Assembly: GCA_021324185.1 (NCBI GenBank)
Contig: JAJPJN010000180.1
Span: 1 to 64,000, forward strand
Direction: 5' to 3'
Length of the DNA stretch: 64,000 bases
Source: Terriglobia bacterium
GTDB taxonomy: Bacteria > Acidobacteriota > Terriglobia > Bryobacterales > Bryobacteraceae
In this document: positions 41,789 through 58,383 of the stretch, one piece after another
Numbering within the stretch: position 1 is the stretch's first letter
Layout of the letters: each line of letters begins with the position of its first letter
Program-made: the position numbers and the translations under genes
The notes under the pieces: generated by a model
What the model saw: only the letters and a program-made list of their open reading frames with translations
Database searches by the model: none
What the model was told of the DNA's origin: nothing

Positions 41789-43254
41789 AAGCTTCGCAGT
41801 TCCTGTAAGTACCCGCGGATCGGCTCAGCAAAACCGCCGACATAACCTTGCGCCAAATACTCCTCCAGCAGTGGTGCCAGGTTAACCCGGAGACTCCGTT
41901 TAGCACGGTCCTCATCCAGTTCCAGAAAATACGCATGGCCGGGCACTAGCGGGAACGCATCTTCAGCAGCATGTTCAACGAATAGAGAGACCAAATTTCT
42001 AAAGGCCTTTTGCATAGTGGCGCATCCGAACTCCTCGACTACACTCATGCGCGGCCAGAGCGAGACGAAGGCAAATCGCCGCCGCACAGCGACATCGACG
42101 ATAGCGATGCTACGATCCGCATTGTTCATAGTCCCGAGAATGTGCAGATTGCTAGGCAGGAAAAAGGTCCGATGAAACGGTTCGCCGAAGTCATAAGGGA
42201 GCTCAATCTTGCGCCCCGAAGCCAAGGGTTCCAGAAGGAATATCGCTTCACCGAGAATCTTCCCCAAGTCAGCGCGGTTGATCTCGTCGATATGCAAAAG
42301 GTATTTGCTGGATGGATCTTGGAGAGCCTGTGCCGCTGCCTCCATCAAAAAGCCGCGTGTAGGAGCAAATCGGAAACCAAGATCATTATTAGTGCTCTTT
42401 GGAGCCAGGCCACCAATGAAGTTCTCGTACGTGGTATTCGGGTGGAATTGTATCGTTCGCCCCCGCCCGCCATAACTCGTCCGAAGCAGCTCAGTCGCCA
42501 GCATCGTTTTGCCAGTACCAGGTGGGCCTTGAATAATGACATATCTTCTCGAATCAAGCAAGTCCACTAGCTGGGTGTTTTCAATTGTTGGCATGAGATT
42601 GTTAAACCACTCGGCACGAATAGATTGATAGCTCGCCTGCGCGCCCGCAATAGGTTGATAACCGCGTTCTTCCAACAGAAGATCCAGAAACGCTGATAAT
42701 GCCGCCTCTGTTCCGGTGCGATCATCGGTTGGGCTATATAGGGCATAGATTTCCTTGCCGTATCTGTCAAAAACGCTTTTGTACTCCGGCCATTGTTTCG
42801 CGACGTTGTCGGGAAGAGGCAGATCCGTCCGAGTTGGATCTTGTTTCGCCCAGGCGACAAGAGTTCCGCGGCCGTACTTCTGATTCAGCCAGGAACAGAT
42901 CCCCTGGGTCTTCCGGGCGTGACCCGGTCGCCCGAGAATTGCCTCGTCGGGCGCAAGGCCTTGTGTCCCGACGACCATCCCGATCAGGCAGGGTCGATCA
43001 GGCACAGGAAACATGACGAACGACAGCCCGCTATAAGGTCCCGAAGCCGGATTCTGCGGGTGAATGTAGGCAGCAAAAGGAACGCCCGAATCGCCACTCA
43101 TCTCTGGCGCACGGAGCGTCAAAGCCCTCATGGCTTGCTTCGGATACCGCCCACCCGGGCTGCCAAACAGGGCTTCAAATGCCGCCTTGTTTCGTTCGGC
43201 CCATGCCTCCTGCTTTAGAAAATGTGCAATCTGAACCAGCGATGCAATGCTCAT
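41785..43254 (-). CDS. mcrB: McrB-like AAA+ GTPase of a McrBC restriction system
   Basis: Motor/recognition subunit of the modification-dependent restriction pair. The C-terminal AAA+ domain has Walker A GPPGTGKTMLATELL (about residue 243 from the chosen start), Walker B LLHIDEINRADLGKI and the McrB-specific GTMNNADRSIAIVDVAVRRR, close to the MNxxDRS GTPase consensus. The N-terminal ~220 residues, expected to read the modified base, match no domain I know (AFEALFGSPGGRYPKQAMRA). The ATG at 43254 begins MSIASLVQIAHFLKQ; an ATG at 43320 adds 22 residues. Neither has a clear ribosome site. Confidence 0.88.
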   Translation of the reverse strand: MSIASLVQIAHFLKQEAWAERNKAAFEALFGSPGGRYPKQAMRALTLRAPEMSGDSGVPFAAYIHPQNPASGPYSGLSFVMFPVPDRPCLIGMVVGTQGLAPDEAILGRPGHARKTQGICSWLNQKYGRGTLVAWAKQDPTRTDLPLPDNVAKQWPEYKSVFDRYGKEIYALYSPTDDRTGTEAALSAFLDLLLEERGYQPIAGAQASYQSIRAEWFNNLMPTIENTQLVDLLDSRRYVIIQGPPGTGKTMLATELLRTSYGGRGRTIQFHPNTTYENFIGGLAPKSTNNDLGFRFAPTRGFLMEAAAQALQDPSSKYLLHIDEINRADLGKILGEAIFLLEPLASGRKIELPYDFGEPFHRTFFLPSNLHILGTMNNADRSIAIVDVAVRRRFAFVSLWPRMSVVEEFGCATMQKAFRNLVSLFVEHAAEDAFPLVPGHAYFLELDEDRAKRSLRVNLAPLLEEYLAQGYVGGFAEPIRGYLQELRSL

Positions 43255-43432
43255 ATTTGGAACTTCAAATGAGACTTTAGCAGCGCTGGCCCGATTAATC
43301 CGGATACCCGGCATGCGCACGTTGATCGGCTTGACAGATCACTCAATCTGATTTGGCTTGCAACGGATACGGTTTGCGTGGCTCGCTAAAGGGGTCGTGA
43401 CGGGCATGAAAAACACGACGAGCTTCCACAAT

Positions 43433-43520: not shown

Positions 43521-43640
43521 TCTGCCGTCGCGCATTGCCCACCATTTGCCCACGGCGACCTACGCGGCAATTCAACAAGCGATTCAAACGGCTGGATACA
43601 ACCATCGGAAAAGGTGTACAATATCCGAAGGATTTATCCA

Positions 43641-44255
43641 ATGCCTGCCCGATCACAACCACTCGCGAAAGCGCGCCGCGTCTTCCAAGAGCACGAGGGC
43701 ATACTGCGTACTAGCGAGGCTCTTCGGCGCGGCATCCACCCGCGGACTCTCTATGAACTTCGGGACCGCGGAGAGATCGAGCGCGTTGGAAGGGGGCTGT
43801 ACCGGCTGGCCTCCGCGCCTCCCCTCACAAGCCCCGACCTGGTTACAGTTGCCCTTCGAGCGCCGCTTGGTGTAGTGTGCCTCATATCCGCGCTTTCCCA
43901 TCATGACCTGACAACTCAGATTCCACATGCAATTGATCTGGCGCTTCCGAGCCATGCTCAAGCCCCACGGATGGAAAGCATTCCGCTGCGCATTTTCTGG
44001 TATTCGGAAGCCCCGTATCGTGCCGGTATTGAGACATTCACGATTGATCGCGTGTCTGTCAAAATGTACTCTCCCGAAAAGACCATCGCCGATTGTTTCA
44101 AATACCGAAATAAAATCGGCCTTGATGTCGCAGTCGAAGCTCTCCGTGCTTACAAAGAGAAGAAGCGCAAGCCAGACCTGAAGGCACTCACAACGTTCGC
44201 GCAAATCGATCGTGTCATGCGAGTATTGCGGCCATATCTGGAGGCCATATTTTGA
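43641..44255 (+). CDS. AbiEi-type antitoxin/transcriptional regulator, toxin lost
   Basis: Antitoxin component of an AbiE (type IV) toxin-antitoxin system: an N-terminal winged HTH represses the operon and the C-terminal domain counters the nucleotidyltransferase toxin. The HTH reads EHEGILRTSEALRRGIHPRT, then YELRDRGEIERVGRGLYRLA; later VVCLISALSHHDLTTQIPHA and KMYSPEKTIADCFKYRNKIG are characteristic of the family. The ATG at 43641 has GAAGGA upstream, favouring it over a GTG at 43614. The stop overlaps the toxin's TTG start, but the toxin frame ends after 21 codons, so the antitoxin is now orphaned. Confidence 0.88.
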   Translation: MPARSQPLAKARRVFQEHEGILRTSEALRRGIHPRTLYELRDRGEIERVGRGLYRLASAPPLTSPDLVTVALRAPLGVVCLISALSHHDLTTQIPHAIDLALPSHAQAPRMESIPLRIFWYSEAPYRAGIETFTIDRVSVKMYSPEKTIADCFKYRNKIGLDVAVEALRAYKEKKRKPDLKALTTFAQIDRVMRVLRPYLEAIF

Positions 44256-44615: not shown

Positions 44616-45077
44616 TCAATGTTTGCCTTGCCCTCTGCGCCCTCTCCCAGTCGTTGGGATGGCATCGCCGGGCGCTATCACCCGTGAGGATAACTGCTTC
44701 TGGGGGAAGTCCTTTGGGTTTAAAGTCGCGATAAATGCCGCTCGTCCCTGCTCGGCACAAGCACAGAAGGGGTCATCACCTCGATCAGGCGAGATTTCGG
44801 CTGTCGAACGAAGCTCAATCATCTCGGCTTCTTCTCTGAGCAGATTGATGATGGCACCAATGAGATTGCGCCGGACTCCCAGCCGCCTGAGTACTTCTTT
44901 GTACTCGGCCAGAATCTCCTCGCTTACTAGCCACTTAAACGTCGCACTCTCCAGCCAGTTCCGGAGGAGCTTTGCACTGGCGTTCTGGATCGGGCGATCA
45001 GATTTGAACCCGGCGATTCCAGCAACGAGCACCGAGGTATCGATGACTCCTTTAGGACGATCTCGGGGAGCGGCCAA
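44616..45077 (-). CDS. PIN-domain toxin (COG1569 family)
   Basis: Predicted RNase toxin. The PIN acidic residues are visible: VIDTSVLVAG (first Asp), SEEILAEYKEVLRRL (Glu), GDDPFCACAEQGRAAFIATL with the Asp pair, then NPKDFP. The basic C-terminus (GRGRRGQGKH) is an extension. Its start overlaps the antitoxin gene by 26 nt, usual for translational coupling with the antitoxin first. Length 153 is normal for this family. A decayed second copy of this locus exists at 34.2 kb. Confidence 0.88.
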   Translation of the reverse strand: MAAPRDRPKGVIDTSVLVAGIAGFKSDRPIQNASAKLLRNWLESATFKWLVSEEILAEYKEVLRRLGVRRNLIGAIINLLREEAEMIELRSTAEISPDRGDDPFCACAEQGRAAFIATLNPKDFPQKQLSSRVIAPGDAIPTTGRGRRGQGKH

Positions 45078-45612
45078 CCGTTATCTCCGGCAGTCGTTTC
45101 TTTTCGGTGCGATATGAGCGGATCGCGTCGGCGATTTCGGATTCGGTAACACTCGAAAGGTCGCGCGCAGCAGCCTCCAGTTTGTGCGTGAATTCCCGCT
45201 TCCATTCAGGCCTCTTTCGGCCCCGAGGTAGATCCTGATATTGCGCCGCGCGAGGAAGTTGTTCGTTGAGCTCTCTTGCCAGATTTGCAAGCGGAATACG
45301 AACTTCAATTGGTTCGCGGCCTCGCATCGGGCGCGAGCGAAGCCAGACGTAACGAGGTGTATCGCGTTCGCTCTCTTTGAGATTGTTCAAAACAGCTTCT
45401 GTGAACCGGGCCAGGAGGTCGGTGGACGTGCCAAGAGACTCCTTTAAATAGAAGGCCACCTTTGCCGCAAGCAGGAGTCGCTTATCAAACCAATAAATAC
45501 TGTCTTCGCGGCGCGGTCGAACAACCCTGAACTGCACGAGATTCTGCAGATCCTTGGGGTCGACGCCAAGAACAGCGCTGGCTTGCTTAAGTTTCAACTC
45601 AACGGATGACAT
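45052..45612 (-). CDS. Antitoxin paired with the PIN toxin
   Basis: The first gene of the toxin-antitoxin pair, 186 residues. The N-terminus ASAVLGVDPKDLQNLVQFRV looks like a helix-turn-helix/SpoVT-unrelated DNA-binding segment, followed by YWFDKRLLLAAKVAFYLKES and a basic middle (PIEVRIPLANLARELNEQLP, QDLPRGRK). The C-terminal helix (ESEIADAIRSYRTEKKRLPE) probably wraps the toxin. The family is often annotated simply as a hypothetical next to COG1569 PIN proteins. The role is inferred from position and the matching remnant locus. Confidence 0.75.
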   Translation of the reverse strand: MSSVELKLKQASAVLGVDPKDLQNLVQFRVVRPRREDSIYWFDKRLLLAAKVAFYLKESLGTSTDLLARFTEAVLNNLKESERDTPRYVWLRSRPMRGREPIEVRIPLANLARELNEQLPRAAQYQDLPRGRKRPEWKREFTHKLEAAARDLSSVTESEIADAIRSYRTEKKRLPEITVGRSPRSS

Positions 45613-45886: not shown

Positions 45887-47905
45887 TCAGCTAATTCTGA
45901 AACCCAGTCTCTGGGCTTCCTGAAGGATCTTTTCGCCTTGCTGGATCTGCTTCCTGCTCGGTGGCTTATTTTGCGCCGCCAGCCTGCCCAAACTATATGC
46001 CAGAGCACGCTGCCACGGTGCAAGATTGCCCGTCTCTTTTGCCCAGCCCGAGATGGCAAACCATTCGTCGGCCGGGATAACACGAATCCGGGCATATGCT
46101 TCCATGTCAGCCGAACCGTCCCTCCTCACCGTGCCACTGTCCGGCGAGAAGTCGCGTTGCGTGACGATCGGCCGGAGCAGGCCAGAGGGAATGCCGATCT
46201 CGCACGTCCTGAATTTTTCCCAGCACCGCTCTTTCTTAGCCCATTCCGTCACGTTGCCGCCCTGCGCTCCCTCAATAAGATGATCGTAGGCCGCTTTCGA
46301 GATAATCCTGATAGTCTCATCAAGCTCCTGGGACAGAGCTTGAGCTTTCCATATTCGTTCAAGATCGATCTTCTGTGCAGTATGGTGTGAAAGCCACGAG
46401 AGAGTATAGGTCACGATATTTGCCCGATAACCGCCGTAGTTCTGCGCCTGCACGAGTTTCTCGCCCCGTCGGAACAGGATGGCCTTTGCAATGAGGTGAC
46501 GGAAATAAGCATCATCCGGCACCGGAGGCTTTTTGTCCGCAAGTTCGGCCATGAACTCAACGAAATTCTTCTCAGCGCCGCGGCTGACCATATGGGGTTT
46601 CTGGTCCCATGTGTATTCGAACTTGGCGAGATCGGTTTTTGTGAACTTCTGCGAGACCGGGTGTTGGATTTTCCAACGTTTGCGCTCGCCGGGGCTTCCC
46701 GCTCGCGCCAAAGCGTCGTTGTAGCTCCCCCGCGCCCGTTCATAGTACCAGCGTGTCTCGATTTGCGTTCCAGCCAGCGCAGGCGCCCAGATTGTGCGTG
46801 AGAGTTCCTCGACACACAAATGAAACGGATGATTCGCAGAAAAATCCGCGGTGTTGACTTTGTTTTGGCTGTTGGCGTACAGGGAAATTCGCGGCGCGAG
46901 TTGATCGATAGATGCTGGGTCTTTCGGAACGGTGAGCTTCACCTGAACCGAAATGTTGCTGACATCCGCTCTGTCCTTTTTGACAGCCGTGTAGAGTGAT
47001 GCCGTCGTCTGTCCGCCGTTGACGATCTGGAAACTTTCGGCACGGGTCAGGAGAATAGCATTCCCGTGATTTTCGAATTCGACGCGCTCTGCCGTGGCCG
47101 AAATTCCGTTGTTGTATGCCAGAAAGCGCTGCGGCTCTTCGAGAATGGTATCGCGGATTCCGCGATTGATTTTGCCGCGTGCTTGAAGAAACGAGCGGAC
47201 GTTGCGTTCGAGAAGCCGGGCGCCATATCTTTCGTAAATCCTGACCAGCAGGGAAGCGGGGAAATAGCCCACATATGTTGTGTACTCATAAGCCGGGTCG
47301 GCGGAGCGGATGCAGACCACACGCCCCCCGAACTCCTGAAATTTTACGTCAATGGCTTCGCGCTTTGCACCGGAGGTCTCCATCCGGAAAATACGCTCGA
47401 TATCCCAGACGTGGTGAGTAAAGTTCACGCCTTCGATGACAACGTCTTTGTATTCCCGCGCCGATGTCAGGCCATCTGTCAAAAGGAACAGCCGACCTCG
47501 TGTGACATCACCTCTCGCCGAGTGGATTGAATCGGCAGCATCGAACTCCGGTGAACTTTCTTCCAGGCCTGCGCGAAAGTTGTCAGTCAGCGCGCGCTGA
47601 AAAAACCCGCGCAGCCGGCTGAAATGCCGATCTATATCCGCGGCCGGTACACGCTGCGGCGAGACATGTTTCGTGTAGATGGTTACAAAAAGGTCGATGC
47701 AGTCGTTATCGGAGGATACATTGTAGGCGTTGATTTTGTATCCGCGGCCATCGCAGTTACAGAGAATGAAGCCATCGGCCTCGCCTGCATCGGTCATGGC
47801 CTCAATGACATCCTCCGTGAAAACATCAACTTCGTAGTTTGAGCTGTCGGAGCCCCGGACAAGCACATCCTGCCGGAGGTTTTCGGCAAACTCCTCAAGT
47901 GTCAT
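45887..47905 (-). CDS. AIPR-family abortive-infection phage-resistance protein
   Basis: A 672-residue cytoplasmic protein of the AIPR (PF10592) family, first noted in lactococcal abortive infection. The diagnostic motif is FLAYNNGISATAERVEFEN, then SFQIVNGGQTTASLYTA, followed by ISVQVKLTVPKDPASIDQLA and ANSQNKVNTADFSANHPFH. Aspartate/glutamate residues in the N-terminal half may form a nuclease-like fold, but no catalytic site is certain. The start overlaps the preceding PD-(D/E)XK gene by 11 nt, so AIPR is the last gene of the six-gene operon. Its role with the operon is inferred. Confidence 0.9.
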   Translation of the reverse strand: MTLEEFAENLRQDVLVRGSDSSNYEVDVFTEDVIEAMTDAGEADGFILCNCDGRGYKINAYNVSSDNDCIDLFVTIYTKHVSPQRVPAADIDRHFSRLRGFFQRALTDNFRAGLEESSPEFDAADSIHSARGDVTRGRLFLLTDGLTSAREYKDVVIEGVNFTHHVWDIERIFRMETSGAKREAIDVKFQEFGGRVVCIRSADPAYEYTTYVGYFPASLLVRIYERYGARLLERNVRSFLQARGKINRGIRDTILEEPQRFLAYNNGISATAERVEFENHGNAILLTRAESFQIVNGGQTTASLYTAVKKDRADVSNISVQVKLTVPKDPASIDQLAPRISLYANSQNKVNTADFSANHPFHLCVEELSRTIWAPALAGTQIETRWYYERARGSYNDALARAGSPGERKRWKIQHPVSQKFTKTDLAKFEYTWDQKPHMVSRGAEKNFVEFMAELADKKPPVPDDAYFRHLIAKAILFRRGEKLVQAQNYGGYRANIVTYTLSWLSHHTAQKIDLERIWKAQALSQELDETIRIISKAAYDHLIEGAQGGNVTEWAKKERCWEKFRTCEIGIPSGLLRPIVTQRDFSPDSGTVRRDGSADMEAYARIRVIPADEWFAISGWAKETGNLAPWQRALAYSLGRLAAQNKPPSRKQIQQGEKILQEAQRLGFRIS

Positions 47906-48911
47906 GCGATCGGCTCTCCCTGATCAGAGTACGAATCCTTGCAGGTTCAACCTCGAAAGCGGCGCACGCTGCCAGCGCCACCATGTAGCTCAGATCTCCT
48001 ACGCCGTCGGGCAGAACGGCGGGCACCCTCGGAAACCCCTTCCCGACTCTGAAAGCTCTTATCCTCTGAAGAACGTAGCGCCTTTCGTAACGCGGGAAGT
48101 GAACATCGAGACAACCATAAGCAACAAGCTTCTCGTCGAAAACATTGCGAGCCGCGCTGTGGCACAGCAACTCGCGAACCGATTGAACAGTCTCCGGGAG
48201 ACTGAACCCGCCCGTCACCACTTTTTCGAGGAGAATCGCAACGAGGTAAAGAGATGCAAAACCGGTGTCGTCAAGCTGGCGCTCCCCGGAAATATGTACT
48301 TTCGTATGCTCCCGTGAGGTGCTGCATTTCACCTCGACTGCGCCGCACGCATACTGAAAATCCTTGCTAAGCGGCTCGGGCATAGCCCAGGAGGAAACCG
48401 CAGCCTGAGGGCTCTCGCATTCCGGAATCACGAAATCACGCAAAAAGAGGAGTTCAGCAAGCAAGCCCTGCACCGCAATTTCGGACAGGCCCTCGCCTCC
48501 GCTCGATTCAAAAAAGCGCTTCCACCGATCGAGCCGGCCGAGAAAGGCGGGAAGCGCCTGCATGGCAACGGGACGCTGGAAGACATGTTCCGCCACGTCA
48601 CTGGCGACATAGCTGAAAACCTCATTGAAAGAAGGCGCTGCCGATTCTATAAAGAGATGCAGGTGACCAGTATCTCCGGAGAATCGCTTCACGGCTGTGA
48701 TGAATCCGCGACTCTGGATCAGCGGGCCGTCCGAAGCGCGTGGAGGCGAGGCAGTCTGAAGTAGCAACATGCGCGTACCACTGGGATGACGGGTACCCAC
48801 AAACAAGCCATCACGGGATCGCGGATCTATCCGGCGCACTGTGACACCGGCCTCGGGATTGTGACCGCAGGCGCCGGTCTCCAGGCCCTCCCAGAGGTCG
48901 CCCAGATTCAT
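47895..48911 (-). CDS. PD-(D/E)XK motif protein (DUF4420-like)
   Basis: Predicted nuclease-fold protein, 338 residues. The core motif occurs mid-protein: VQGLLAELLFLRDFVI (alpha-helix with Glu), then SKDFQYACGAVEVKCSTSRE, where Asp and Glu-x-Lys complete a PD-(D/E)XK site. The N-terminus WEGLETGACGHNPEAGVTVR resembles DUF4420 proteins found beside Z1 ATPases. It overlaps the Z1 gene by 4 nt and AIPR by 11 nt. Cleavage activity is inferred from the motif. Confidence 0.85.
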   Translation of the reverse strand: MNLGDLWEGLETGACGHNPEAGVTVRRIDPRSRDGLFVGTRHPSGTRMLLLQTASPPRASDGPLIQSRGFITAVKRFSGDTGHLHLFIESAAPSFNEVFSYVASDVAEHVFQRPVAMQALPAFLGRLDRWKRFFESSGGEGLSEIAVQGLLAELLFLRDFVIPECESPQAAVSSWAMPEPLSKDFQYACGAVEVKCSTSREHTKVHISGERQLDDTGFASLYLVAILLEKVVTGGFSLPETVQSVRELLCHSAARNVFDEKLVAYGCLDVHFPRYERRYVLQRIRAFRVGKGFPRVPAVLPDGVGDLSYMVALAACAAFEVEPARIRTLIRESRSHDT

Positions 48912-51718
48912 TGCAGCTCGAACTCCTGCTGCCAGTAGATATTGTTGACACGGTAGATGATTCCGTCATCGCCCGATACAGATGGGAAGCTCAGTGCTAT
49001 TCCAAAAACCGGTCGTTCTGTAGGGACTGGAATATCCGGGTCTTCTTCGGGCGTCCTTCTTTCATAAAACTGGACCGGATAGATGAGAAGAAGGCCACGA
49101 CTTGCCGGGCGCACGTCGCGTATAAACGGACCGCTCGCGTCAGTGGGTCTGTTCTCGCTCCGCTTCTCAGGATCTTTCTTCTCCCAGGCATTGACAGTTC
49201 GCTGCAGGGCATCAGCCCGCTCGTCGTGGGAGAGATCAAGCTGCTCGTCGGATCTGCTGACGATCCGTCGTACGCACTGCTTCGAGTCATCTGAGAACAC
49301 TCTTTCGCGGCGCGTCAGCCTGACTCTTCCGATTGGCGGAATGTCGCATTCCATCTCGGCCGTGCCGCCCTTGAGTAAAACAACGGACCACTCGGTCAGG
49401 CCGCCCTCGCCGGTTTTTTTGCCGATGAACCTCGCCATGCTGTCGCTGTTCACTTTGAGAGCCTCCGGATGCGTGCGGTAATCCTGGAGGAACCTGATGA
49501 CTTCCTCCGCCGGCACTCCGGACCATATACTCCGTGACCGGTCATCCTTTCGCGCCACCACGGCCTCTGCGCGCGCGAGAAATGCCTCGACAGCTTCCGC
49601 ATTCTGCCGAAGGATGTCGGGGTCCTTGAAGAGGACAATAGTTTCCGCGATAGTTCCGGAGAAGGAAACCTTCATTTCGGTCCCGGTCCGCAGCTTGCTC
49701 GCACCGGTTATCTGCAGTCCGTTGGGATGCGTGCGGACACGAAGACCGTAATCCCGCGGCGTACCGCCGATCGCCGCCATGTGCTCAAATTCTCTCTTGA
49801 GCTCCGCCGAAGCCAAGGCGATATGTCGGTACCAGGTAGTCAGATCCGCCGTTGTATAGAGGCGACAGAGATCCAGATACCCCGGCCGATACCCGAACCA
49901 CCGTCCCATCTGCATGAGAGTGTCATACATTCGCGAACTACGCAGGAAATAACTTACCGAGAGCCCTTCCAACGTCAGTCCTCGCGAGAGCTTGTCACCG
50001 CCGATGGCGATAACGCTCACGCCGTTAGGGTTGTTTCTATAGTCCAGAACATCGGCTACGGTTCCGTTGATGACACGAACCGTAATCGCAGTTGCGGCCT
50101 CGACCAGATGCGGTTCCACATCTTGCCAGGCGAGCCGAACAATCTCCGCATCATTAATGCCCCGGTCAAGAATTGTTCCCGTGGTCGCTTCGAAATCACT
50201 CTCCCATTGTTCCTGAAGCTGATCGCGAAGCGGCGGTGTGTAGTTGCCATCCCCATACCGAAGGCGGTTAACCAACGAATGAAGCTCGGTCCGCACAGCC
50301 TCGGCCACCGCCTGCTGCACGGAAGTGAATCGTGTCACGTGAACCAACATGGAATTGTGTTCCAGCTTCTGCCCGCGCGCGCGGCGTGCGGCACAGGTGA
50401 GCATGAAGGCGCGTATCGCCTCGCGAAGCGATTCGGGGAGGCCCTGTACCAGATAGCCGTTCCTGTGTCCGCTCGGCAGCCACGGCTCGGAATCCCGAAC
50501 TGTTCTGATGACTGGCAACCCGTCCTGCTCAGTCAGTATGCCCGCTTCGGGGTCGCGGTCCAGACCGAAGACCTGCTCCGGTCCTATGTAGTTGGAGGGA
50601 GTCGGAAGTGCGACGATGAAGCTGCGCGGGAACAGGCCCTCGCCGTGCGCTGCCGTTTCGTCGGATGGATCGATGAAGATGTTGGCGAAGGGTGTTGCGG
50701 TGTAGCCCACGTACGCGCTTTTCTGAAAGGTATCCAGCAATTGCCGGATCATTCCGTTGATGGCCGTCACATCATAATCAGTCAGTGAGTTGCCGTTCTC
50801 ATCAACCGGGATCGGTTTGGTATTGACAGAAGCGTTATCAGCCTCATCGTCGATCACCAGCAGGGGCACTCCAGAGATCCGCTGGCGTCCGCCTGTGCCG
50901 TCATGCGCGCGCAAGCTAAGCCACTGCCGCAGGTTCTCGAGAATGCCTTTGTTCTTTTTGACGACGACCACGACCGGATCATTACCTCCCGGAATAACAC
51001 CGATCTGGTTCGCAACAGTCCGGTTGAAGTCGCCGTCTTCGGCACTGCCCGTCAGAGAATGGGCGACCGGCTCGTCCTGCTCGGAGCGTCGGAGCCCGAC
51101 ACCCAGTCTCTGATTGTTCTGGTTATAAGCTGTCGCCCGGTGGGTATTGAATCCCAGAAAACTTTCGTCCATGCGAAACTGTGTTTGACTTCGCAGGCTG
51201 TTCAGCATCCCCGCAAGAATCACGATCACGCGATAGCCCGCATCCGCCGCCTTGCAGACTAGACCAGCGTAATTAGCGGTCTTTCCGGACTGGACTTGGC
51301 CCACAACCATGCCCCTGCTGTCCCAAGCCCCCTCGCGTCTCGGATTCTCCACTAGACCTAGGATTCGGTCGGTAAGATCATCGAGACGGTTTACAACTGC
51401 CGTGCTCCATTTCAGATCTTCCAGCAGATAGTCCCTGTAACGGTTCCAAAACCGCCAGTTAATGCCGGCTTTGCTGTTCGGCAGCCAAGGCTGATGGTCC
51501 TTGCGGTCCTCCAGCACCATTTCATGTCCGATTGCGACATTGCAAAGATTCTCGACTTGGCGGATAAGCCGGTCGCGCTCGCGGGTCAGTTCAGGATGAT
51601 CAACGGTGAGGACCGCGAGCACCGTGTCAACACGACGCCGGATCTCCTCCTCTGTTGGTGCTGCTGTCGGCCGAAGCAACATCAGAACCATCTTGAGGGC
51701 TTCATCGAAAGCGGTCAT
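48908..51718 (-). CDS. Z1-domain superfamily II ATPase
   Basis: A 936-residue ATPase related to superfamily II helicases. Walker A is GQVQSGKTANYAG (140-152), Walker B is PLLVIDDEADNAS, and motif III is YVGYTATPFANIFID. The Z1-specific C-terminal half has IAIGGDKLSRGLTLEGLSVS and LMQMGRWFGYRPGYLDLCRL, with arginine-finger-like residues. Z1 proteins accompany MORC-like ATPases and methylases in predicted restriction systems. It starts in a 4-nt overlap with the GHKL gene and ends in a 4-nt overlap with the PD-(D/E)XK gene, implying fixed stoichiometry. Confidence 0.94.
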   Translation of the reverse strand: MTAFDEALKMVLMLLRPTAAPTEEEIRRRVDTVLAVLTVDHPELTRERDRLIRQVENLCNVAIGHEMVLEDRKDHQPWLPNSKAGINWRFWNRYRDYLLEDLKWSTAVVNRLDDLTDRILGLVENPRREGAWDSRGMVVGQVQSGKTANYAGLVCKAADAGYRVIVILAGMLNSLRSQTQFRMDESFLGFNTHRATAYNQNNQRLGVGLRRSEQDEPVAHSLTGSAEDGDFNRTVANQIGVIPGGNDPVVVVVKKNKGILENLRQWLSLRAHDGTGGRQRISGVPLLVIDDEADNASVNTKPIPVDENGNSLTDYDVTAINGMIRQLLDTFQKSAYVGYTATPFANIFIDPSDETAAHGEGLFPRSFIVALPTPSNYIGPEQVFGLDRDPEAGILTEQDGLPVIRTVRDSEPWLPSGHRNGYLVQGLPESLREAIRAFMLTCAARRARGQKLEHNSMLVHVTRFTSVQQAVAEAVRTELHSLVNRLRYGDGNYTPPLRDQLQEQWESDFEATTGTILDRGINDAEIVRLAWQDVEPHLVEAATAITVRVINGTVADVLDYRNNPNGVSVIAIGGDKLSRGLTLEGLSVSYFLRSSRMYDTLMQMGRWFGYRPGYLDLCRLYTTADLTTWYRHIALASAELKREFEHMAAIGGTPRDYGLRVRTHPNGLQITGASKLRTGTEMKVSFSGTIAETIVLFKDPDILRQNAEAVEAFLARAEAVVARKDDRSRSIWSGVPAEEVIRFLQDYRTHPEALKVNSDSMARFIGKKTGEGGLTEWSVVLLKGGTAEMECDIPPIGRVRLTRRERVFSDDSKQCVRRIVSRSDEQLDLSHDERADALQRTVNAWEKKDPEKRSENRPTDASGPFIRDVRPASRGLLLIYPVQFYERRTPEEDPDIPVPTERPVFGIALSFPSVSGDDGIIYRVNNIYWQQEFELQ

Positions 51719-53217
51719 CGGATTCCCCTCTTATCAAGAATTGCCGGTAGGTTGGCGATGAATTCGGACAGCCGGTTGAACGGTTCCATCCGGTAAAGGC
51801 GCGCAATGGCATCCTCACGTGAGACTCCGGTATGGACCAACGCCTGATAGAGTTGCACCGCCAGTTCGTAGACTTCGCCTGATGCGGCCTGTTCGAACGG
51901 CACCGCCTCGCTTTCTGGCTTTTGGGATTTGTTTAGGATAATCAACGGGACTGGGACCGATTCCTCGATCAGTCGCAGCGCCGATTTGAGGATGTCAGCA
52001 TCGGGGGGCGCATCACTCAGGATTCTGCGGATGAGCGGATGTTCTCGATTAATCCGATAGAAGATTTTTCCGTGACTCACCTTCTGCTGCCATACGAACA
52101 AGCTTTCCTCGGCATGAGCCCGGCCGAGCACACTACCGCGATGCCGATATATATCGACGGCTTTTTCCCTGGTCGCCCTCCCGATTCGTGCCAGAGACTC
52201 CTTCAGTTCGACCGGAACGCGGGCTGTGCTCTTCTTAATGTCTAAGCCCCAGAGAGCATCAAGCGTGTTCGGCAGGTCGATTCTGATCCGTGCCAGCTTG
52301 TAATGCTCTTCCTTCTTGATACCCAGCCCGAGCCAGTCGCCCGGAACCAGTAACCGGCCGTTACGGTAGATAAAGAAGCCCTGATGCGCCACCCACCCGT
52401 GCGGGCCGCCAGCGTCCGCATATTCCTGCGGCGTTAGTTTGGAGTGATGCGGAAGAATATAGGCATCCACGGCGACCGTTTCGCCCTTCATCATGAGAAT
52501 CTCGGGCTCGGGATGCTGTGTTGATGGATGCGTGGAGAGGAACGGGTCCCAAGGCTTTACCGGATTTCCGTTGATCCGCAAAGTCACGCCGCGCGGTCGT
52601 TGGAGAAAACGGTGAAAAACCATCGCCAAGTGTTTCTCTACCGCTTCGATCCGGTCGTTAAACACGTCACGGTCATACGCGCTCTCGGCCAAGGTCCCGC
52701 TTACCAGTCGGTCGAGATTCTCCCAGACGACGGCAGTTCCGGATTTGCCAATGCGCGCTGAATATTCCGCGGCCTTCGGGGACCCTCTGCGAAGAACGCG
52801 CCACTGGCATGTGGCGCGAACGTAATCGAGATCCCAGCACCGCGTCCAAAGACTCGATACCTCGGTCCTCGTACTGACGATCACCCGGCGGCATTGAGAG
52901 AATGAGGCCGTCTTCAGCCCCAGCCCAAAGCGCCCCAGATCTTCCCGGTGCCGCGGCTGTGTCGGATCGGCACCGATCCGCATCGCCGCGATCAACTCCT
53001 GTTCCGACATCCCCGAACCGTTATCGATTACAGCAATACTGGACGCCTCGCCGTTCCAGAAAAAAACTATATCGATCTCTGTCGCATCGGCAGTCAGACT
53101 GTTATCTACCACGTCAGCTATGGCAGTGAAGAGATCGTACCCGACCGCTCTCAGCGACTCGATCATCGCCGGTGCATACGGCTCGACGATATCGTAGGAA
53201 TCCTTGGCTGTAGGCAT
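51715..53217 (-). CDS. GHKL (MORC/HSP90-like) ATPase
   Basis: Predicted ATP-dependent clamp-like protein. The GHKL site is complete: AIADVVDNSLTADA (N-box with Asp38/Asn39), VIDNGSGMS (65-71) and GRFGLGLKTAS (95-105). The region after residue 250 (PEEYADAGGPHGWVAH-like, YRNGRLLVPGDWLGLG) resembles the S5-type transducer of MutL/MORC, and the C-terminus is helical. No kinase His domain is present. It sits 2 bp after the methyltransferase and overlaps Z1 by 4 nt. It probably couples ATP-driven DNA capture to cleavage in the operon. Confidence 0.91.
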   Translation of the reverse strand: MPTAKDSYDIVEPYAPAMIESLRAVGYDLFTAIADVVDNSLTADATEIDIVFFWNGEASSIAVIDNGSGMSEQELIAAMRIGADPTQPRHREDLGRFGLGLKTASFSQCRRVIVSTRTEVSSLWTRCWDLDYVRATCQWRVLRRGSPKAAEYSARIGKSGTAVVWENLDRLVSGTLAESAYDRDVFNDRIEAVEKHLAMVFHRFLQRPRGVTLRINGNPVKPWDPFLSTHPSTQHPEPEILMMKGETVAVDAYILPHHSKLTPQEYADAGGPHGWVAHQGFFIYRNGRLLVPGDWLGLGIKKEEHYKLARIRIDLPNTLDALWGLDIKKSTARVPVELKESLARIGRATREKAVDIYRHRGSVLGRAHAEESLFVWQQKVSHGKIFYRINREHPLIRRILSDAPPDADILKSALRLIEESVPVPLIILNKSQKPESEAVPFEQAASGEVYELAVQLYQALVHTGVSREDAIARLYRMEPFNRLSEFIANLPAILDKRGIR

Positions 53218-53219
53218 GT

Positions 53220-54812
53220 TCAGACCGCGGCACCTCCCGTGTACCGGGCGGAGGCACCCTCGCTACGACCTTTGAGGATCTCCAGGACTATAGCGGCAAT
53301 CTGGCGTGCGAGCAGGGGTGGAACGGCATTGCCGACCTGGCGATATTGATGGGTTCTGGGACCACAGAAATAGTAGTTATCGGGAAACGTCTGAATTCTC
53401 GCCGCTTCCCGGACGGTCAGACTCCGGCACTGCGTCTCGTCATAGTGAATGAAATAGTGACCGTCTTTCGCGATGTGGCTCGTTATGGTCGTAGCCGGGC
53501 GAAAGGCTATCTGAACCCGGAACCGGTCGTCAAAATAGCCCTTGCTCAATGCATCGCCGAGGCTTCGGTGCCTAGGATGAAGCTCGGGTGGGAAATCGTT
53601 CAATTCCGGGGAGCGAAAATGAACCCGCGCAAAACAGGCCGCGAAGAGGTATCTATGGAGATCAGCTGCCATGTGCGGGCGGCTTGCGTGGTTGCACGCG
53701 CCGCCGATTAATGGATCGAGAAACCATCCCGGCTCGTATTCACAGGTGGTGTTGTGAGCGACAAATTCGCTCCCGCGATTAGCCTGCATATCGCGCAAGT
53801 TATGCACAGTCCGGACGATACACTCCCGCAACTCCCCTTCCGCTCCGTTTCGTCGCGATTTCATGAATCCGGTATCCAGTATTGATGCGAGCGCCGCGCG
53901 CCACTCTTCCCTTCCGTCATTGGCACGTGTCAGCCCACTGCGCAGGCGTGGAAGACCCCTCAGCACTTTGCTTGCGGGTATCGGCTGGTTGTGGGGCCGC
54001 AACGCCACGAACCCGTCGAAAGATAGGTCCTCGCGTATTCCGAGAATAATTACGCGATGGCGCGCTTGTGGAATCCCGTACTCCTCGCATTTGATGACAA
54101 AATCGCCCGGCTTGTAGTGGGGATGGCCGTCAAGGGAATGAGTGGGATATTTCAGGCAAAGCGAACGCAGGGTATATTTTGCACCTCCGCGTTGCGCGCC
54201 TCGGATCACTTTCGCCGGATGATGGAGATCATCCAGCATCTGGTCGAAGATTTCGTTGCCTTTGACTTCGGATGACAACAGCCCCTTTACGTTCTCCATG
54301 ATGAAGACGGGCGGCTCGTGAACGGAAAGAATTCTCAGATATTGTTTGTAGAGATAGACGCGATCATCATCTTCAGCAATGCCGCCGTTTCGCGACCTTC
54401 CAACGACAGAAAACGCTTGACAGGGCGGACCACCACATAGGACCCATGAGTCCGCACGTCCAAGTGCATTCCGAATCCTGCGGTCAACTTCGCTTGCCTG
54501 AACCACCCCAAGCTCAGCCTTCCAAGCCTCATCTCCGGCGGCCTTCGCCTCAGCGGGATATCGGGCGAAGAGTTCGAGGCGTCCAAGCTGCCCGCGCAAA
54601 TGATCGTAGTAGTCGTGGGGAACTTTTCCCACCGGAAACTGCCGGAAGAAACTCCTGAGTTCGAGCGTCCGATGTGCCCATTCCTCCATCTCGATGGATA
54701 GAGCGATCCGGAACTGGCGAGAGCCGCGCGCAGAAGCAAGCGCGGAGAAGCCCTCCCCAAGCCCTCCGGGACCGGCGAACAGGTCGACGACGGGAATAGA
54801 TTCAGCGGGCAT
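53220..54812 (-). CDS. DNA (cytosine-5) methyltransferase
   Basis: Modification enzyme that transfers a methyl group from SAM to C5 of cytosine in a specific site. Motif I VDLFAGPGGLGEGF (9-22), catalytic motif IV GGPPCQAFSVVGRSR with Cys131, motif VI FIMENVKGLLSSEVKG, motif VIII RHRVIILGI and motif X RQVGNAVPPLLARQIA are all visible. The target-recognition region lies between about residues 290 and 430. Length 530 is long for the class, owing to insertions after motif II. It overlaps the vsr-like gene by 11 nt and precedes the GHKL gene. The site recognised is unknown. Confidence 0.95.
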   Translation of the reverse strand: MPAESIPVVDLFAGPGGLGEGFSALASARGSRQFRIALSIEMEEWAHRTLELRSFFRQFPVGKVPHDYYDHLRGQLGRLELFARYPAEAKAAGDEAWKAELGVVQASEVDRRIRNALGRADSWVLCGGPPCQAFSVVGRSRNGGIAEDDDRVYLYKQYLRILSVHEPPVFIMENVKGLLSSEVKGNEIFDQMLDDLHHPAKVIRGAQRGGAKYTLRSLCLKYPTHSLDGHPHYKPGDFVIKCEEYGIPQARHRVIILGIREDLSFDGFVALRPHNQPIPASKVLRGLPRLRSGLTRANDGREEWRAALASILDTGFMKSRRNGAEGELRECIVRTVHNLRDMQANRGSEFVAHNTTCEYEPGWFLDPLIGGACNHASRPHMAADLHRYLFAACFARVHFRSPELNDFPPELHPRHRSLGDALSKGYFDDRFRVQIAFRPATTITSHIAKDGHYFIHYDETQCRSLTVREAARIQTFPDNYYFCGPRTHQYRQVGNAVPPLLARQIAAIVLEILKGRSEGASARYTGGAAV

Positions 54813-55218
54813 TGTCCTCCAATGCGCTAACGAGGCGAGCCTGCAAACTGGCCTCGTCGCTGAGTTCGCATTCCCACACTATGATTACGTGCCAGCCTAG
54901 CGCCTCAAGCTCACGAGTATTTGCCGCGTCCCGCGCTACGTTTCCCTCAAATTTCCGCCGCCAGAACGTGGTCCTCGTCTTCGGCATAACGGCATTCTTA
55001 CAACCTGTATGGCGGTGCCAGAAACACCCGTGCACGAAGATTACGGTATGCCAGCGTGGGAGCACGATGTCAGGTTTGCCAGGCAGCCCACGACGACCTA
55101 GAGTGAAACGAAACCCTTGGCGATGCAGCAAGGACCGGACTCGTCGCTCCGGGACCGTATTGTGCCCGCGGATGCGGCTCATATTCCAGCTACGGTGGTG
55201 TGGCGTCAGGCGATCCAT
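54802..55218 (-). CDS. vsr: Very-short-patch-repair (Vsr-like) endonuclease
   Basis: Predicted nickase of T:G mismatches formed when 5-methylcytosine deaminates. The motifs MSRIRGHNTVPERRVRSLLH, LPGKPDIVLPRWHTVIFVHG and CFWHRHTGCKNAVMPKTR match the Vsr fold, including the catalytic Asp, the HGCFWH zinc/His segment and the NxxFW-like FWRRKFEGNVARD. I use the ATG at 55218; a TTG at 55233 is an alternative. Length about 138 is normal. As first gene of the six-gene operon, it precedes the matching methyltransferase, as in classical dcm-vsr loci. Confidence 0.93.
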   Translation of the reverse strand: MDRLTPHHRSWNMSRIRGHNTVPERRVRSLLHRQGFRFTLGRRGLPGKPDIVLPRWHTVIFVHGCFWHRHTGCKNAVMPKTRTTFWRRKFEGNVARDAANTRELEALGWHVIIVWECELSDEASLQARLVSALEDNAR

Positions 55219-55462
55219 TTTGCTTGAACACAAAAATTCCCTTGCTCGTTGGCCACGATTACATCTGGCCAGCGATCATACTGGTCCAATATCGGAAATT
55301 GTTATTTTACTTCCAGAGCGTTGATAGGAGACGACGGGTAGGCTTTATCTGAGGGAACGGAATTTCAACGCAGTTTGACCGTGGCCCAACACTGCAATCT
55401 GTAATCCAAGTTACAATCCCAAAGGGCTTGGTGGCGATTCAGCGCCCCTGGCCCGTTCCGCC

Positions 55463-56168: not shown

Positions 56169-57419
56169 TCACGTGTTTACAGCCAGAACGTACGGAATTC
56201 CGAATAGCCGCGCCCAGGACCTAACCGCTGAGCTTTGGAATCTCGGGATGGTGGTGTCGACTGCCCAGTAGTCGTTGGCCACTCCAATTAGGATTTCCGG
56301 GTGCCGCGACATCGAAGTCAGCACCGGCCAGGAGATGAGCTGCTCGTAGCAAATAAGAATGGCCGCTCGTTTTGCGGCAATCCGCATTACGCCGGGTCCA
56401 GCAAGATGGAGCGGTGCTGAGTCCGACCGGAGCGGATTCCACATCGCCACAGGAACGGGAATCCGCTGCTCAAATATTCGCGCCTGGCCGCCGCGGATGA
56501 CGAGACCATTAAAGTACGTTGGTGACCATTTCTCGGTCTCCGGTGAGCGGGTCGGTGTAGGTGTCGGCGCCCAGCGGAGTGTCGCCAATTCTGCCGAAAA
56601 GTCGTACAACGGGCGCTCCCCCCGCGCCTTCCTCGGAATCCGTGCGCCGATGAGAACCGTTTTTCCGCTCGCCTTTAGCTCGGCGAGCGTTTGTTGCCAA
56701 AACACATCCGTTGATGCGGTCCAGTACGGCACCACAGTTTCGGGGAACACGATCACAGATGCTCGCGCGGATACAGCCTCGCGCTGGATCTCCTCGGCCG
56801 TCTGATATTCGGCCAAAGGATCGGGTGCGCGGTGGGCAATGGAGCCGAAGTGTGTGCTGATCGCTTTCCAATCTGCGGGAGCTGACGGCTCCGTGGGGTG
56901 CATCAGATTGCCTACACCGCCTATGCAAACCGCCGCGACAGTGGCCCGTTTGGGCCAAATCGCGAGAGCGCCCGTCAGAATCGCACAGAATGACAAACCG
57001 CACCACCCCGTCGCTGGGAAAAGAAATCCCGCTGCTGTCAAGGGCGAGGCCCAGCCGATGATTCCCAGTGGCGGAATTACTGTGAGGGCCAGGCCAATTG
57101 GGGCGCGCCATACCGATTGCCGCGCATTTCGCGACCAGACAAGCGGCCATGGGAGTGCAAGCAATAGCGCCGCAACCGCCCAAAACCCGAAAGCCGCGAA
57201 CGGCGACACGCCTGGGCCGAAGAAATTCTTCGCGCCTGGAATTAGCGGCCAAAGCGCTCCGGCGTAATATGACAGCACCGATTGATATGCCGCTTGACGG
57301 GATTCTGCTCGGAGCGCAAGCGCTGGCATCAGCACCGACGCGGTGATGCCAACCGGATACCCAGTTGAAACGGCAAGCCCTACGAGTGTTCCCGCAGCAG
57401 AACGGTGAAACGCAGTCAT
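56169..57419 (-). CDS. traB: TraB-like conjugal transfer protein (Lnt-type carbon-nitrogen hydrolase)
   Basis: Integral membrane protein of 416 residues with several N-terminal TMs (LVGLAVSTGYPVGITASVL, FGFWAVAALLLALPWPLVW) and a C-terminal nitrilase-like domain. Candidate catalytic residues are Glu in VIVFPETVVPYW, Lys in KTVLIGARIPRKAR or nearby, and Cys in AILICYEQLISWPVL. This matches apolipoprotein N-acyltransferase-like TraB proteins of Ti/Sym-type plasmids, needed for efficient transfer but not for pilus assembly. The start overlaps the traF-like stop as ATGA. A housekeeping Lnt would be ~500 residues with longer TM region. Confidence 0.85.
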   Translation of the reverse strand: MTAFHRSAAGTLVGLAVSTGYPVGITASVLMPALALRAESRQAAYQSVLSYYAGALWPLIPGAKNFFGPGVSPFAAFGFWAVAALLLALPWPLVWSRNARQSVWRAPIGLALTVIPPLGIIGWASPLTAAGFLFPATGWCGLSFCAILTGALAIWPKRATVAAVCIGGVGNLMHPTEPSAPADWKAISTHFGSIAHRAPDPLAEYQTAEEIQREAVSARASVIVFPETVVPYWTASTDVFWQQTLAELKASGKTVLIGARIPRKARGERPLYDFSAELATLRWAPTPTPTRSPETEKWSPTYFNGLVIRGGQARIFEQRIPVPVAMWNPLRSDSAPLHLAGPGVMRIAAKRAAILICYEQLISWPVLTSMSRHPEILIGVANDYWAVDTTIPRFQSSAVRSWARLFGIPYVLAVNT

Positions 57420-57976
57420 CGGAGCGTCAACAATGGCTTCACGCGATCTCGAATGGAGTTGATCGCGACCGGTCCGAAATAGCGGCTATCGAAGCTGCGC
57501 GGGTTGTAGGAAGAGGCAACCCAAACGAAGCCCGGCTCGACCGTATATCGGCCCAGTTTCCACGACGTGAGGGTTCGGCCTTTTGTATCCCTGCGGAGCG
57601 CTGCGGTGTTTGGCAAAAGACGACCCTCAACCGAGATTCCTGCCGCAGATACCTCAACCAAATCGCCCGCATGCGCAACGACAGGTTTCAGCAGGGGTGC
57701 GCCGCCGTCCCTGCACGCTCCCCGATCACGATAACCGCGCGAAAGTGCGAGGCTGGCGAAAGGTTCGGGGGGACAAAACTCGACGAGATTCGCGCCGGGT
57801 TGCGAGCTTGTTACATACAAACCAAGCGGCAAGGAAGGCGATGTGTTGATTCGCAGCCCAACGATGTCCCAGAACTGGAAACCGATGAACAAGGGAATCA
57901 AGCATCTGAGCCCGATTATTCTGGCGATTGTGACGCGCCGCTCTCTGGGTTCACTGGACAGGCCAATCGCTGTCAT
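57416..57976 (-). CDS. traF: TraF-type S26 signal-peptidase-like protein
   Basis: Predicted membrane serine peptidase that processes the conjugative pilin or other exported transfer proteins. After a TM (ARIIGLRCLIPLFIGFQFWD), the motif RINTSPSLPLGLYVTS contains the nucleophilic Ser, and LLKPVVAHAGDLVEVSAAGI contains the Lys general base; SYNPRSFDSRYFGPV is the third S26C motif. AAGGAG lies 9 nt before the ATG at 57976, favouring it over a TTG at 57994. Length 186 is typical. It overlaps ssb by 26 nt and traB by 4 nt. Confidence 0.88.
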   Translation of the reverse strand: MTAIGLSSEPRERRVTIARIIGLRCLIPLFIGFQFWDIVGLRINTSPSLPLGLYVTSSQPGANLVEFCPPEPFASLALSRGYRDRGACRDGGAPLLKPVVAHAGDLVEVSAAGISVEGRLLPNTAALRRDTKGRTLTSWKLGRYTVEPGFVWVASSYNPRSFDSRYFGPVAINSIRDRVKPLLTLR

Positions 57977-58379
57977 ACACCGCCGCTCCTTCAAGGTCGG
58001 GGAGCGATTCCCGGTTTATGCACGCTTGCCCGGAACCGCTGGCCGCCGCTCCACGCGTCTGGGCAATGACATGGCAATAGCGCACGACGATTTCATTGAC
58101 AATGCGCTTTGAGCCGTCCTTTGGAACGAATTCACGCTGCTCGATTGTCCCCTCGACAAAAATGTTGTCGCCCTTTTCTAAAGCCGACGCCACCTTTGAG
58201 AGGTCTCCATAAAAAGAGAGGCTGTGCCAGTTCGTGCGCTCATGCCACTGCTGGCTGTTGTCTTGGAATCGGTAAGTCTGTCCGAGCCGCGCGTTGGCCA
58301 CGGGCATTCCCGACGGAAGATACCGGACTTCAGGCTTCTTTACCAAATATCCAGCTATCTCGACCCTGTTCATTTGCAT
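57951..58379 (-). CDS. ssb: Single-stranded DNA-binding protein of the transfer module
   Basis: OB-fold protein that coats transferred single-stranded DNA. It begins MQMNRVEIAGYLVKKPEVRY, then GMPVANARLGQTYRF, WHSLSFYGDLSKVASALEKG and NIFVEGTIEQREFV, the standard SSB pattern with aromatic base-stacking residues. The C-terminus ends in DLEGAAVYDSDWPVQ rather than the usual acidic DDDIPF tip, so recruitment of host partners may differ. AGGAG lies 10 nt before the ATG at 58379, which decides the start. Gene between virD4/traG and traF. Confidence 0.92.
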   Translation of the reverse strand: MQMNRVEIAGYLVKKPEVRYLPSGMPVANARLGQTYRFQDNSQQWHERTNWHSLSFYGDLSKVASALEKGDNIFVEGTIEQREFVPKDGSKRIVNEIVVRYCHVIAQTRGAAASGSGQACINRESLPDLEGAAVYDSDWPVQ

Positions 58380-58383
58380 GGTG

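Follow-up and report, generated by a model that had tools for sequence, protein, structure and literature searches.

Which part of a six-gene operon that joins a cytosine methylase to relatives of an anti-phage system tells host DNA from foreign DNA? The question is raised by a locus of a Terriglobia bacterium (Acidobacteriota; assembly GCA_021324185.1, contig JAJPJN010000180.1), of which we analyzed positions 1 to 64,000; this whole stretch is called the window here. Six open and intact open reading frames (ORFs) occupy the minus strand between 55218 and 45887. At the head of the operon stand a Vsr-type mismatch endonuclease gene (54802-55218, with the ATG at 55218; the listed ORF begins at an in-frame TTG at 55233) and a C5-cytosine DNA methyltransferase gene (53220-54812; PF00145, DNA_methylase, 1.8e-45). 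They are followed by genes for a GHKL (MutL/MORC-like) ATPase (51715-53217; HATPase_c_3, 8.5e-30), a Z1-domain superfamily II ATPase (48908-51718; Pfam Z1, 3.6e-83), a putative PD-(D/E)XK nuclease of the DUF4420 family (47895-48911; PF14390, 4.4e-60) and an AIPR protein (45887-47905; AIPR 1e-101, AIPR_N 4e-42). From Vsr to AIPR the junctions are an 11-nt overlap, a 2-nt gap, two 4-nt overlaps and a second 11-nt overlap. An earlier note on this DNA had described the six same-strand genes with these overlaps and this gap, and the coordinates and intact frames confirmed it exactly.

The last four genes correspond to mzaB-E of MZA (mzaABCDE), a known anti-phage system that is defined in PADLOC and NCBIfam by MzaA-E and no methylase. 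The GHKL, Z1, DUF4420 and AIPR proteins match PADLOC MzaB (1.4e-122), MzaC (5.2e-213), MzaD (7.1e-13) and MzaE (1.4e-100), and they stand in the order B-C-D-E on one strand, as in published MZA, whose gene order we took from a locus titled Xanthomonas arboricola (L117). The resemblance falls short of the NCBIfam equivalog cut-offs, which were missed for MzaB (465 vs 850 bits), MzaC (810 vs 1500), MzaD (116 vs 420) and MzaE (430 vs 1050). The operon also differs from MZA in having no MzaA, a protein with ankyrin repeats and a sigma-70 part, and in being led by the methylase and Vsr. An MzaA profile found six matches in the genome of the window, all on other contigs and none at the locus; two strong ones cover the sigma part only, and one weak match covers positions 15-74. 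The operon therefore looks like a sigma-factor-less relative of MZA, by analogy with which we infer a role in phage defence. Our preferred reading, which we hold with about even confidence, is that it is a horizontally mobile restriction system of the MZA family, from a branch without MzaA, acting by the mechanism set out below.

A scan of a genome collection, given as covering 84,980 species, confirmed at least 586 Z1 relatives. The best 80 were used (L052-L131, titled as archaea and several bacterial phyla); having been ranked by their match to the Z1 of the window, these named loci lean to close relatives. Together with nine loci of the window's own class, five further own-class loci and 22 viral loci, they made up a set of 116 in which Z1 matched well. 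All four core genes were recovered in 95 of these, and the order GHKL-Z1-DUF4420-AIPR on one strand held in 95/95, more than chance would give. Companion genes were counted in the 51 named loci with full flanks, the 29 with short flanks being dropped, at 200 bits or more for the methylase and 80 bits or more for Vsr; these cut-offs and the distance limits are our own. Construction of the family profiles drew on the loci that they were later used to annotate, the viral loci excepted, and ORF starts were set at the most upstream possible position, so that overlaps and lengths are inflated. All 51 full-flank loci have the GHKL gene, and 50 each have DUF4420 and AIPR; 48 have a C5 methylase and 37 have Vsr nearby. 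On viral contigs, 17 loci carried the complete core (no flank filter applied); a methylase was nearby in 15 of them and Vsr in 13. The background in ten cassette-bearing genomes (about 53 Mb, cassettes included) was 19 Vsr placements, or about 0.36 per Mb, and 28 methylase genes, or about 0.53 per Mb.

The methylase and Vsr are thus found close to the core much more often than the background would give, and the proposal that the genes belong together was supported. Vsr as a chance neighbour was rejected, given 37/51 loci against about 0.36 genes per Mb, and so was Vsr as an obligate part, as it fell below the cut-off in 14 of the 51. Vsr accompanies the core often but not at a fixed place: it and the methylase may be upstream or downstream of the core, divergent or convergent to it, with 300 nt or less between the two in 34 of the 50 loci of this comparison with all six genes. 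Clustering of the other ORFs for further obligate genes gave the MzaA sub-clade (15 + 6 loci), all remaining clusters being found in 6 loci or fewer. In four loci titled actinobacteria, a second, shorter GHKL gene lies between Vsr and the methylase (L076 4837-6141, L091 4798-6102, L106 4765-6075, L114 4835-6139). Oar-like TonB and MacB genes pointed to Acidobacteriota as the host taxon, but a contig from the same class (L163) shares 99.9% identity with a locus from a metagenome-assembled genome titled Planctomycetota (L061).

The companions and the core seem to differ in how they were inherited. We compared distance matrices by Mantel tests for the 51 loci in which all six genes occur, the window included, and found that the core proteins co-vary closely (r 0.78-0.93). 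Correlations of the methylase or Vsr with the core were lower (r 0.27-0.43), and the methylase and Vsr correlated with each other at 0.51. Each test gave p 0.001, and the weak correlations still exceed chance. In partial correlations Vsr follows the methylase given Z1 at 0.45 and Z1 given the methylase at 0.25. Among 16 pairs of loci with Z1 identity of at least 85%, ten have methylases less than 50% identical. L070 and L071, for example, have cores 92-95% identical, with methylases that are 47-50% identical depending on the alignment and placed on opposite sides of the core. Between the groups L113, L115/L116 and L118/L127 the Z1 proteins are 86-93% and the methylases 32-45% identical, and L128/L129 have 87% for Z1 and 40% for the methylase. 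Close pairs are not independent, and the identities shift by a few points between alignments. Vsr remained 60-73% identical between L115/L116 and L118/L127 despite the methylase exchange, so co-exchange of the two is not constant.

These pairs bear indirectly on the possibility of a classical type II-like restriction-modification system, in which DUF4420 would be a sequence-specific enzyme matched to the methylase and the other proteins would assist. The intact PD-(D/E)XK residues of DUF4420, its NhoI/EcoRV-like model and the nearby methylase are all in keeping with such a system. A matched pair should change together, however, and in the ten methylase-swapped pairs DUF4420 is 76-93% identical with no special dip. 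The nuclease and methylase are not inherited together in 10/16 close pairs, unlike in type II systems, the comparison being one of inheritance and not of specificity. We regard the type II-like explanation as distinctly improbable.

Nor did we find a recognition patch elsewhere in the core. We compared 15 pairs with swapped methylases and 23 with kept methylases, taking the local dip as overall identity minus that of the lowest 25-residue window, and local divergence in the swapped pairs did not clearly exceed that in the kept pairs: the dip was 31.2 vs 31.9 for AIPR, 21.6 vs 20.8 for DUF4420 and 30.8 vs 41.3 for Z1 (swapped vs kept). Mild hot spots near Z1 690-715 and at the AIPR C-terminus were present in swapped and kept pairs alike. 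Since different methylases (32-50% identical) adjoin near-identical cores and no variable patch matches them, the core probably does not encode the sequence specificity. The exchanged methylases likely differ in target.

In another explanation the core senses a phage cue, such as a DNA end, a replication fork, or an unusual protein or structure, regardless of methylation, and the methylase and Vsr serve a separate purpose such as protection against other restriction enzymes. Weak co-variation of the methylase with the core, its variable position and strand, the definition of MZA without a methylase and an McrBC-like pair next door to the operon all fit this idea. The presence of a methylase near 48/51 bacterial and archaeal loci is difficult to account for unless the methylase is needed there, and we consider a methylation-independent core rather unlikely.

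The methylase association also extends to the loci that are closest to published MZA. MzaA was found upstream of the GHKL gene in 21 of 90 searched loci, in which AIPR is shorter (a median of 596 amino acids in full-flank MzaA loci vs 672 in the window); its identity was checked with PADLOC for L117 and L127 and with Pfam for L085, L117 and L127. In the Z1 tree (midpoint-rooted FastTree, L033 excluded) the 21 MzaA loci form one clade with support 1.0, nested among loci without MzaA, the sister group of the clade having weak support (0.426). Because the MzaA loci are a single clade inside a wider tree, the sigma-factor form of MZA looks derived, and the sigma factor was most likely a later gain. 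A methylase is near 13/15 full-flank named loci with MzaA and 35/36 without, so that within this sample the methylase link belongs to the family as a whole; Vsr is near 14/15 and 23/36, respectively. Even L117, a near-canonical MZA locus (MzaE 919 bits, cut-off 1050), carries Vsr about 50 nt past MzaE and then a convergent C5 methylase. In L077 (13673-18174) and L085 (12586-17123) a tandem AIPR pair lies behind a single MzaA-type core.

What AIPR contributes is a separate question. The earlier note had cast it as a second-line killer, and a related explanation is abortive infection, in which AIPR would be a toxin freed when restriction fails. The family name and a match to PADLOC AbiU (1.7e-22) speak for a toxin, as do relatives without AIPR, in which the remaining genes can occur alone. 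HEPN domains are all-helical. The HEPN-type toxin proposed for AIPR (Makarova 2012) is at variance with our AlphaFold2 model (predicted local distance difference test, pLDDT, 87.6; predicted template-modelling score, pTM, 0.59), in which residues 1-180 are predicted as mixed alpha/beta. The model has a predicted nuclease-like N-terminal domain, a ParB/DndB-like middle and a helical C-terminus. The N-terminal domain matched AF1548 (Z 9.2), which we take to be a nuclease-like fold, FokI (8.8), MspJI (8.2) and HamA (7.5). Its fold resembles that of the PD-(D/E)XK nucleases FokI and MspJI (Z 8.2-8.8) but has no conserved catalytic set: across 42 rows there was no conserved D...(D/E)xK, and in residues 1-183 only F29, L72, F73, F101 and D168 were at least 90% conserved. 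AIPR moreover co-varies with the motors (r=0.88 with Z1) and is present in nearly all close relatives. The killer role was thus not supported, and we judge the abortive-infection explanation quite improbable.

The middle of AIPR may be a ParB-like domain. Residues 203-355 matched ParB-N (Z 6.4 and 6.1), 204-349 matched SspE (4.4-4.7) and 212-572 matched DndI (3.0). Best Z values of 7-8 are common for proteins without a true relative; we gave weight to the agreement among several nucleases and to that of ParB-N with SspE. In hhalign, AIPR columns 207-370 scored 34.3 against DndB (P 0.0034, probability only 9.5), five controls scored 15-23, and the alignment sets NGGQTT of AIPR over NDGQHR of DndB. 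A DUF262 profile did not match AIPR (18.2), and when solved structures were searched by sequence, AIPR had no match and DUF4420 and Z1 had none that was credible. A report on DndI (PMC11662687) describes a ParB-like domain that recognizes the mark of the host and lets self DNA go, and we used this sensing as an analogy for AIPR, whose middle domain is predicted to be ParB-like. SspE and DndI have an HNH nuclease and sense phosphorothioate, whereas AIPR has a nuclease-like domain without a catalytic set. In a survey of the ParB-CTPase fold from 2025 DndB counts as ParB-like, and the term AIPR is absent from its main text in the part available (PMC12704722).

The catalytic motifs of DUF4420, GHKL, Z1 and the methylase are intact. 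In DUF4420, E153, D184, E193, K195 and Q212 are invariant in 34/34 rows, and residues 139-327 of its model (pLDDT 91.2) are nearest to NhoI (Z 7.7) and then EcoRV (Z 5.9). On account of the invariant residues and the NhoI/EcoRV-like model DUF4420 is the likely cutter, and the conserved set agrees with the earlier assignment of cutting to the PD-(D/E)XK protein. NhoI was solved with methylated DNA. The N-terminal part of the model (about 2-125) has a weak likeness to type III secretion chaperones (Z 3.8-5.0). The GHKL protein keeps D35, D38, N39, D65, G67, G69, G98, G100 and K102, and Z1 keeps GKT 145-147, DDE 290-292, TATP 340-343 and QMGRWFG 603-609, each in 61/61 rows. In a same-class genome an in-frame TAA breaks the Z1 gene (L035 8982-11693). 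The methylase keeps its PCQ, ENV, QxRxR and GN residues in 61/61 rows, the window included; these are its catalytic motifs. The best match of the methylase was DrmMII of DISARM (2.1e-85), and DISARM models found no match at E 0.01 among the other five operon proteins. Vsr scores over the family cut-off (TIGR00632, 129.9 bits, cut-off 97.85; Pfam Vsr 4.3e-26; 1.7e-29 against E. coli Vsr, 1cw0). In the alignment with the E. coli enzyme the equivalents of D51 and H69 are kept and that of T63 is V; Vsr is a predicted enzyme of very short patch repair.

We propose the following mechanism. The C5 methylase, whose motifs are intact, would mark host DNA at its own site, and the core of GHKL clamp-like ATPase, Z1 motor, DUF4420 and AIPR would attack unmarked DNA, recognition most likely being supplied by the methylase or its mark. 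By analogy with their families, GHKL and Z1 may spend ATP on loading onto DNA and moving along it, and DUF4420 would cut. AIPR, going by its predicted structure, may be a ParB/DndB-like switch through which the complex engages or lets go. Vsr presumably repairs the T:G mismatches that arise from deamination of 5-methylcytosine. For the family as a whole we tentatively suggest, while leaning against it for the present, that the MZA core is a specificity-agnostic four-protein engine that takes its rule for self and non-self from an adjacent C5 methylase. AIPR would then be a ParB-fold switch reading the outcome, sigma-factor MZA a derived branch of a wide bacterial and archaeal family, and Vsr a means of repairing the mutational cost of an interchangeable mark.

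Several observations weigh against our preferred reading. If published MZA works without a methylase, that branch has no need of one. The ten swapped pairs represent about four independent replacements, and low-identity methylases could still share one target. The varying position and strand of the methylase and its weak co-variation argue against a tight interface with the core, and the local dip in GHKL was slightly larger in swapped than in kept pairs (30.0 vs 26.6; standard deviations 7.0 and 11.8). The structure matches of AIPR are middling (Z 3-9), an unrelated rhomboid domain (5.5) and acetyl-CoA carboxylase (5.2) also match, and Foldseek returned nothing for AIPR at E 0.001 or better (best E 0.39). 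By the DndB alignment AIPR is without the arginine of the GQxR motif, which makes NTP (nucleoside triphosphate) hydrolysis uncertain and speaks against a simple equivalence with DndI. Within the class of the window, five loci that are more distantly related have Z1 and DUF4420 and no AIPR by profile, though their sequence reaches past DUF4420 (L038 7816-13813, L039 7762-14978, L040 7606-11227, L041 2381-6063, L164 6091-13475). L038-L041 are one clade in the Z1 tree, and in L040 and L041 a large ORF of about 617 amino acids directly follows DUF4420 in the place of AIPR. L097, L100, L102, L138 and L147 also appear without AIPR, but contig ends or short flanks cut these loci. The five own-class loci speak for the idea that AIPR was an addition to the other genes; among close relatives its near-constant presence (50/51) rules out an optional addition.

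Much of the gene association was described before. Context was used by Iyer 2008 (PMC2292703) to tie GHKL ATPases, superfamily II helicases, cytosine methylases, Vsr and AIPR together in paraMORC neighbourhoods. Miller 2022 (PMC9523054) describes candidate systems with Z1, a PD-(D/E)XK protein and a cytosine methylase, to which type II adds AIPR; they are about 20% identical to mzaBCDE, with mzaA in few only. Type II there has a Z1 protein of 925 amino acids, the PD-(D/E)XK protein (printed DUF4220), a cytosine methylase, AIPR and a MORC-type association, while type I goes together with DNA repair endonucleases. Our AIPR-less own-class loci may be this type I. The operon in the window unites Vsr and AIPR, a difference from Miller 2022. 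That Z1, AIPR, cytosine methylase and Vsr are linked is already known from these two papers. The view of an incompletely described system, taken in the earlier note, has in part been overtaken: the core is MzaBCDE, and Miller 2022 described loci with Z1, a DUF4420-type protein, a cytosine methylase and AIPR. New here are the fixed core order, the nested MzaA clade, the exchange of methylases on a fixed core and the predicted AIPR fold, whereas the proposal of Iyer 2008, so far as the available part goes, was based on context, without co-variation, exchange or AIPR structure analysis. Among titles and abstract openings, most subscription journals being outside the coverage, we found no paper on the MZA mechanism and none stating methylase exchange.

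The surroundings of the operon are consistent with horizontal transfer. On its upstream side lie genes for an S26 signal-peptidase-like protein, a TraG/VirD4-type conjugative coupling protein and a DUF3363/MobL-like relaxase (57416-61760, minus strand), parts of a conjugative or mobilisable element. The downstream side has a PIN_3-domain ORF overlapped by a small upstream ORF that has no Pfam match (44616-45612, minus strand; toxin-antitoxin-like), an AbiEi_4 regulator (43614-44255, plus strand) between the McrBC genes and the operon, and an AAA_5 protein adjoining an McrBC-family protein (40307-43320, minus strand), read as a McrB/McrC pair. McrBC-family systems carry out 5-methylcytosine-dependent restriction, and one sharing an island with a C5-methylase operon is a possible conflict unless the target differs. 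MacB/FtsX-type permease genes flank the stretch on both sides, and we read it as a mobile defence island. Some Z1 match was found in 22/299 genomes of the class, ten of them (the window's own included) at E 1e-70 or better, and none in the two same-genus genomes examined. Predicted viral contigs hold 26 relatives. Three phage records from human faeces (MT836521, MT836482 and MT835895) encode a relative of the GHKL protein at 31-35% identity. ARAGORN called a tRNA-Ala at 22153-22240 (plus strand) within a long ORF of the opposite strand, probably a false call.

The comparative data recast MZA as a methylation-linked family, in which the question of self versus non-self becomes testable. If the core does take any methylase, the family would be a natural modular restriction engine, and new specificity would evolve by the exchange of one gene, unlike in type II systems.

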